Source: Cristatella mucedo (taxonomy: Eukaryota; Bryozoa; Phylactolaemata; Cristatellidae). From it: a stretch of DNA of 64,000 bases. The stretch spans positions 1,068,501 through 1,132,500 of the forward strand of contig WPIO01000025.1 in NCBI GenBank assembly GCA_009760855.2. Reading direction: 5' to 3'. Within the stretch, counting starts at the first letter, position 1; every line of letters begins with the position of its first letter. This document shows, piece by piece, positions 26,901 through 29,900 of the stretch. The translations under genes were made by a program, and so were the position numbers. Below the pieces are notes generated by a model that was given only the letters and a program-made list of their open reading frames with translations, was not told where the DNA came from and did not search any database.

Positions 26901-29900
26901 TGGTATACAATAGACGATATGTGTTGCATGTATTGTATGCAACATGCTAATATACCATTTGATTGTCATAGTGTCGGCAATACAGCGGCTGAAAAACAAA
27001 CATCCCTAAATTGCTGCCAGCTAATACTCCCAAGTTGGCACCGAACAAAATACCTTGAAGTAATTTTATATGAGAAATGAACAACTGGTAATGCATAACT
27101 CTGCCGAGGGATCGTATTATGCAGAATAAGCAGTTGAAATGGTGAGGGCACTTACCTGATGCACCATAACCAGCCAAAGAGTGCCTTTCAAGTAAATGAG
27201 TGACGGTGAGGGCACTTACCTGATGCACCATAACCAGCCAAAGAGTGCCTTTCAAGTAAATGAGTGACACTAGGCTTCTTAGTGCCATCCCACCTCGGTG
27301 CCTGCTTGACCTCACGGGCCGAGCCAAGAGGCAAATGGCTGCTAGCGGCTTGATCGCCACTGCCGTTGTGGGTCTGATGCAGGTCTGATGCCAACGATTT
27401 GCTACCACCGGTAACTGCAGTTGGTGTATGACCTGAAAATGAACGCATGACAGAACTGCCACGCGCAGTCGAGAATAAAGTTGCTGCCGCCCCTAAGCTG
27501 AGGGCCCGAAAAGCATTGTGAGACACAATCCGGTCGATAGAGGCTGCAAATCGTACTGTTTCAGTGACGGCAGCCAAAAAGACCACTGCCAAAGAGAGCA
27601 GCCATGTGAAGAGAAGGCAGCACGCTGTAAGGAGGTATCTCACGGTTCGACAGAGCTGAATTGTTTCAAATGGCAGCGAGTGACTAACCATTAACATTGT
27701 CGTGTTCGAGCCGTTTCTTGTCGGCAAGGTTTGCTTTGGTGATTTCCACCCACTGCTCACTGCTGCTGCTACTGCAGCAGCTGTCGTCACTCCTGCGCCG
27801 CTTTTTCTTGTGCTTTTTTGGCCGTTTGCCATCTCGCGAATGCTGTGGCGGATGGGCCACGACAGGAAGCCGTGTATCACCCAGACAGCGGCTCTTCAAG
27901 CATTCGTCATTGTCACCATTTGCCAAGCCGGTGCCATGCTGCTTCGCCTCTGTGTGCGCTCTCTTGTCCCCGTTGCACTCGGCGGCATCGCTTTCACGAG
28001 AATCCCTCCTGTGCTTCTTGTGCTTCTTCCTCTTCTTCTTCCTTTTTCGGCCGCCATCATCAGACTGCTCGCCGTGACATTTCGAAAGCAAATCCCGTGG
28101 TCGACGCTCGGAAGCGCCGTCGCACAAAGCCGATGACGTGCTCGGCTTGTGCTCAGCGCCCTCGAAACCTCTGCGACCCGGGCCTCCGGCAGCTGCAGCT
28201 GATGCCGCCGCAGTTATGTCAACTCTGATAGCCGAGTTCGTTCGGCCGGCTGTCTTATTCAGCTGCACATCAGTGAGTGCTACGCTTTTACTACTGCCAC
28301 CGCTCGAATCCTCAGAGCCGCCTGGCAGTGGTGAGACAGTGTTTGTCAGCGGCAGCTTGTCTCGACAGCTTGAGTGAGAGCCGTTGTCAGCCGTGCCACC
28401 ATTCAAGCAGCCAGCGCCCGGCGCAGGCGACTGCGCCGTCGGCGAAGCTTGCTTGACCGGGAAGGCAACGATGCTGCTGCTGCTGCTTTTAGCAACTGAA
28501 ACAGAGGTGGTAGCAGCAGCAGAAGGCATCTCGGGCAATGTCTGGTCGACAGTCACTCGCCAGCCGGGCACTGCAGCGGTCGCGTGGGAGCTGCCAGCGG
28601 TCAGAGTCGACAGCGGCGGTGACGTCTGCTGCTGCGGAGATAGCAGCAGTCTGCCACGCCCGGCATCGTCCTTGAGCTGCACGCTCCATTCCTGAGTGGA
28701 GTTGACACTTGTGCCACTGCCGCTCGTGCTGCTGTGCTCCGATCGAGCCGACGACAGCCGCAAGCTGGCATTGTCCACCACGTGCCAGTTGGGCGCTGTG
28801 GCGTTGACGGCAGGGCGCAAGGCAGTGGACAGCGAGGCACTCGAGCTACCGCTGCTGCTATCCCTGCCGGAAGCCGCCAGCAACGAGTCGAGCTGCTGCG
28901 AGGTTGGGCTGCCGCTCAGCACGGCAGACGTGCTGCCCGGATTGAGCTGGCAGTCGCCAGCCATCAGACCGGACGACGAAAAGTCGCTCGCTGATGCTGA
29001 GGGGGAGCTGCCTCGTCTCGAACCGGCGCCAGCTGCCAAGCTGTTGGCCACAGCAGATCGCGGAGCCGGCTTGGCCGCGGCGCTTGATGCCGTGGGCTCT
29101 GGCTCCTAAAAGGAAGAAAATAGGCCGACTAGTCAAATGGCCAGGCGTGGCGATGGGAGAAAGGACAAGGGTGGAGAACGTGCCGAGCATCGAGCTCCAA
29201 TCACAGCCCGGGTGGGCAAGCTGCAGAGCATGGCTGCGGCTTGCAAAGCTGCCTAAAGCCGTTCAGTGGCAGCAGGTTGTTCGGCACACAGCTTTTAAGG
29301 AGACGACTTTGTGCTGTCTGTGCTTTGAAGCATAATGTCGGTCCAAAACTAAGCCTGGGAACACTGTACTAGTTAAGGAAGGATTGGCCTCACTTAATTA
29401 GGGGGGCTGACCTTGGCCTTTTTATGTGCAATTGACATTTTACCTCATTTTAAGACTGCTGGGAAACAGTACCTATAGGCCTGTGTTTAGCTGGCCTTAA
29501 ATATAAGTTTTCTTCCTTGAATCTTACGCAAAGATTCTTAGAAAATCAGAACGACTGGGCATATTAGGCACGTGCTAGAGTGTTAATGCTGGGAAAAGGC
29601 TACACTGACTACATTTGCCAGAGCCTCACCTGCAGCTTCTAAGCTGGTCCCGAGGGCAAGCACCACCGTGTACAAGTGACATGCATTAGCAAAGTAGCAG
29701 CAAAAATGCTCAAGACTGTCTGCTTGAAGTGGTTTTGTCAGAAAGCTTCTGCAAGCTACATACAAGCTATGGAACAACCAGAAGCTGCAACACCACATTA
29801 CAGCATCAGTAAACCGTAAGGACTGTGGCACATATTCTTACCACAATTCGCTAATCGCATGCCACAATTGTAAGGCCTGATTGTACTTCTACGACGACAT

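Follow-up and report, generated by a model that had tools for sequence, protein, structure and literature searches.

The window, a 64,000-nucleotide stretch of DNA from the bryozoan Cristatella mucedo, carries on its minus strand a gene for a USP36-like protease (Table 1). A UCH catalytic domain with its Cys and His boxes is present, its pieces being scored separately and not as one joined domain model. Among proteins of solved structure, USP36 is the best match of the catalytic exons. Two separate exons match USP36 (8bs9/8bs3) at 4.4e-13 and 8.5e-15, and their runner-up proteases among the matches listed are USP46 (2.7e-4) and USP35 (4.2e-6). These two exons are nearer to USP36 than to other USPs of solved structure, in a ranking that compares such proteins only and has no USP42 among the matches listed. 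The host gene is thereby like the USP36/USP42 deubiquitinases, from which it differs in its long low-complexity middle. On the plus strand, open frames at 6220-9626 adjoin the protease gene, and we take them to be possible pieces of a WDR11-like gene.

Table 1. Features of the protease gene, its duplicated splice donor and the dispersed fragments. Positions refer to the window, except for the two fragment loci; a slash within a motif marks the splice site.
Feature	Position	Strand	Description
Catalytic-domain pieces, whole span	33240..42389	-	domain matches and matches to proteins of solved structure
Cys box	~42389-42261	-	PF00443, E 6.4e-10
Intermediate catalytic pieces	38880-38767, 38690-38541, 35850-35713, 35603-35523	-	
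His box	33368-33240	-	catalytic-domain match
Exon 12, long open frame	27684..29105	-	two basic clusters
Exon 13 to donor 1	27220..27432	-	213 nt, one WDG motif; predicted from acceptor ttttcag/GTC and open frame
Unit A, first transcribed	27205..27268	-	end of exon 13, 49 nt (27268-27220); start of intron, 15 nt (27219-27205)
Donor 1, CAG/GTAAGT	27214..27222	-	in frame with exon 14
Unit B, second transcribed	27141..27204	-	identical to unit A; exon-like 49 nt (27204-27156), intron 15 nt (27155-27141)
Donor 2, CAG/GTAAGT	27150..27158	-	adds 64 nt; frameshift, stop in unit B
Exon 14	23781..23896	-	116 nt; predicted from splice signals and frame
Probable exon 15	17857..17964	-	in phase, basic; predicted end at AAG/GTACTT
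Fragment L002	L002:1284-1636		carries window 26867-27280, ~92% identity; adjoins a TG run; one unit
Fragment L003	L003:1372-1597		carries window 27108-27397, ~97-99% identity; replaces ~21 bases of LINE-like sequence; one unit

The exon borders are predicted from splice signals and frame, and the exon numbers are those of the first-pass annotation of this DNA. Exons 13-15 match 0 families in Pfam, and a probable in-phase basic exon 15 is present. We assume that the exons at the C-terminal end of the gene resemble the C-terminus of USP36/42. Inspection of the frame in exons 13-15 revealed no sign of decay. We also notice that exon 15 is a probable extra basic exon, beyond the exons that the first-pass annotation named.

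A tandem duplication lies across the end of exon 13. In the assembled sequence, its 64-nt units (2.0 copies) are 100% identical with no indels, and a match of 64/64 between adjacent units is beyond chance. The earlier description of a perfect 64-bp tandem duplication at 27141..27268 is correct in its coordinates. In the minus-strand orientation, a unit comprises 49 exon nt followed by 15 intron nt (GTAAGT and nine more). Each unit does hold the end of exon 13 and CAG/GTAAGT, as had been stated, together with 15 intron bases rather than the 13 given before. The identity stops exactly at both unit edges (27140 T vs 27204 C; 27205 G vs 27269 A), and there is therefore no microhomology at the duplication junction. 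Being exact, two-copy, head to tail, shorter than 100 bp and free of junction microhomology, the duplication is like the small tandem duplications attributed to break repair in the published descriptions that we cite (PMC8355091, PMC5730883), although the repair route here is one that we infer.

Both donors read CAGGTAAGT and match the consensus at 9/9 positions; of the 1265 GT sites scored on the minus strand at 23-43 kb, no others reach 9/9. When donor 1 is used, with 27220 as the last exon base, the junction to exon 14 is in phase and the full protein is predicted. This bears out the earlier claim for the first-transcribed donor, with 27432-27220 joined to 23896-23781. When donor 2 (27156) is used, 64 nt are added, and ten altered codons are followed by a stop inside unit B; translation thus agrees with the effect previously ascribed to the distal donor. 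Counting downstream from this stop, we reach donor 2 after 32 nt and the exon 14/15 junction after ~148 nt. A stop that far before the junction falls under the rule for transcript decay, and decay of the donor-2 transcript is therefore expected.

The predicted truncated product keeps the catalytic exons and both basic clusters of exon 12, and ends without exons 14 and 15. The truncated form would indeed lose the second WDG exon (14), in line with the first-pass annotation, and also the probable basic exon 15. The further claim that 'nucleolar-type signals' would go with them does not follow, since the basic clusters of exon 12 lie upstream of the truncation. In human USP36, the nucleolar signal is placed within region 801-1121 (PMC10164564).

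A search of the genome (572 Mb, 688 contigs) returned the full region in at least one place and fragments of it in at least two others, these counts being lower bounds as only the best candidates were scored. The fragments, L002 and L003, are unspliced pieces of the junction between exon 13 and its intron. The sequence that surrounds the L003 insert is presumably LINE-like. In our reading, both fragments resemble filler DNA of the kind inserted when breaks are repaired. Each of them holds one unit, so that within this genome the single copy is probably the ancestral state and the duplication is derived.

The fragments also bear on the age of the duplication. L003 differs from the host gene at 6/226 sites. 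If the duplication were as old as L003, ~2 differences between the units would be expected, with 79 sites taken as free, and finding none has p ~0.12, which falls short of placing the duplication after L003. If it were as old as L002, for which a divergence of 0.076 is assumed, finding no difference has p ~0.002. The duplication is probably younger than L002.

We further compared the junction with other parts of the same gene. For three control stretches of 741 bases, no dispersed copies were returned among the best candidates scored. Queries neighboring the junction returned either L002 and L003 again with two weak matches (74-78% identity) or the L003 locus only. The comparison hints at a local hot spot at the junction, in a small sample and for a region that was picked because of its duplication. 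The breakpoints of the L002 and L003 fragments differ from those of the tandem duplication.

Two-copy tandem duplications are common around this locus. We surveyed 249 kb of non-N sequence, made up of the window together with 20 stretches from its contig (C177), for repeats with a period of at least 20 and 1.8-2.4 copies, after units of low period had been dropped. The survey gave 21 rows with identities of 80-100%, of which 4 are perfect, with periods of 24, 26, 37 and 64. These rows partly overlap (two in L010, two in L012), include units longer than 100 bp, and count a 122-base unit that recurs in L012 and L013. A separate listing of exact matches also includes shorter units, as well as parts of longer arrays. 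From the rate in the sampled 249 kb, we would expect thousands of such duplications genome-wide, some of them necessarily on splice sites.

Two other perfect duplications lie in the window itself. The one at 57202-57276, which is the 37-base member of the four perfect rows, consists of 37 bases twice plus one base. The other, at 13402-13433, is a 16-base tandem duplication near LINE-like frames, which we take to encode LINE reverse transcriptase.

Taking these observations together, we consider it likely that the duplication is a recent and near-silent product of ordinary mutation, and that donor 1 is probably the one mostly used. A break repaired by fill-in and end joining would have generated the 64-bp duplication, which by chance fell across the donor of exon 13. 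Donor 1 would have retained its exon, the full consensus and the phase, and would mostly be used in this animal. Unit B would be left inside the intron, where it should be inert. A minor share of transcripts may be spliced at donor 2, gaining 64 nt and a stop, and would presumably be degraded. Among insertions shorter than 100 bp in the human genome, small tandem duplications are reported to be the commonest, with an origin in breaks that undergo fill-in and NHEJ (PMC8355091). The hot-spot hint, two dispersed copies at the junction against none in the controls, is left unexplained by this ordinary origin.

The preference for donor 1 draws on published work on tandem donors. In human cells, a library of designed reporters, whose variable region spans 147-162 nt, showed predominant use of the first donor when both were made consensus (p = 3.3e-5), a result for another organism than the host of this gene (PMC6783452). 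According to the same report, the first of two donors of equal strength is favored, which its authors term first come-first served, and exceptions are mostly due to sequence away from the sites (PMC6783452). By its own account, the earlier evidence on the order of donors is conflicting (PMC6783452). It is on this first-donor preference that we base our expectation that donor 1 is favored and the duplication near-silent. The main alternative is a donor 2 that wins. In older in vitro work with duplicated donors, the downstream site, nearer the acceptor, was reportedly preferred. SRSF1 and similar proteins are described as able to shift donor choices of this kind (PMC5585400). For both reasons, the opposite outcome is possible.

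Were donor 2 to win, most transcripts would be frameshifted, and the locus would be a heterozygous or rare, and hence tolerated, allele that lacks the C-terminus or is null. This agrees with the 9/9 score of both donors, with the reported in vitro preference for the site nearer the acceptor, and with the stop position, which predicts decay under the familiar rule. Exons 13-15, however, keep a frame free of signs of decay, which in a young allele would be expected anyway, and the consensus pair of the human library was spliced predominantly at the first donor (PMC6783452). On balance, we regard a winning donor 2 as unlikely. The duplication might also be an artefact, a single copy in the animal that was doubled by a faulty join. 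The units are perfectly identical, and one full-length place was returned in the genome search, leaving no second haplotype for comparison. On the other hand, the two-copy duplications in the sampled 249 kb range over 20-314 bp and identities of 80%-100%, as a natural process leaves them, and the four perfect ones differ in length. An artefact of one typical length would leave a pattern that does not appear in this sample; moreover, the contig is 5.5 Mb long and the window has no N. The first-pass annotation had offered a recent event or an assembly artefact. We retain the recent origin and do not favor the artefact, which seems quite improbable given how common varied two-copy duplications are in the sample.

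Two further readings assign a role to the second donor. The first-pass annotation proposed a potential regulated switch that selects the full or the truncated protease; two usable predicted donors, with products that differ cleanly, speak for it. The units show no divergence, however, so that the sites differ only in position and outer context, and the truncated mRNA is a likely target of decay. Nothing in the sequence favors regulation, and as reported for the human library the first consensus donor is predominantly used (PMC6783452). We therefore set the switch aside as unsupported and highly improbable. Alternatively, the second CAG/GTAAGT could be a donor that also serves as acceptor. Splicing would then first remove 27219-27156 as an intron of 64 nt, and afterwards the parent intron from the recreated donor, to yield a normal mRNA. 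An intron that begins at donor 1 and closes at the unit B AG would by our count measure exactly 64 nt, with GT...AG ends, and its removal recreates CAG/GTAAGT. Dual-specific AGGT sites are, in addition, described as enriched in tandem repeats (PMC10809524). The context of the candidate acceptor is poor: it has 7/16 pyrimidines at -20 to -5, against 8, 11, 13 and 14 of 16 at four predicted acceptors of the host gene, and a count of at least 7 occurs at 80% of 689 background YAG sites. In principle, the second AG/GT could act as a weak candidate acceptor. That this order of removal takes place we regard as a very slim prospect. A nascent nested intron, caught in the act with the protein intact, is scarcely more than a long shot, and it can coexist in some transcripts with the near-silent duplication that we prefer.

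We compared the near-silent duplication with systems in which duplicated splice sites give rise to introns. It is like the AGGT-duplication model of intron gain in being a short duplication with AG/GT; as outlined in its source, that model copies an exonic AGGT, whereas here a donor and 15 intron bases are copied and a new intron is only hypothetical (PMC4974935). The dual-specific sites in the repeats of UBC and VCX3A are similar in that the unit holds AG/GT and its length equals a possible intron. The present unit differs from those described by the poor context of its acceptor and by a length that is not a multiple of three (PMC10809524). There is also a likeness to the [D] stwintrons of Lipomyces, in which a duplicated donor gives a possible internal intron in a parent intron, and one or two splicing steps lead to the same mRNA (PMC7138796). 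The duplications reported there are 4-7 nt long and their splicing was confirmed by experiment, in contrast to 64 nt here (PMC7138796).

If real, the locus offers a natural test, in an animal, of the choice between two identical full-consensus donors. The single-copy form of the junction is preserved elsewhere in the same genome. Otherwise, the duplication is probably an ordinary young mutation with a near-silent effect. If the nested intron were true, it would provide a zero-divergence snapshot of a donor duplication turning into a recursive or [D]-type intron.
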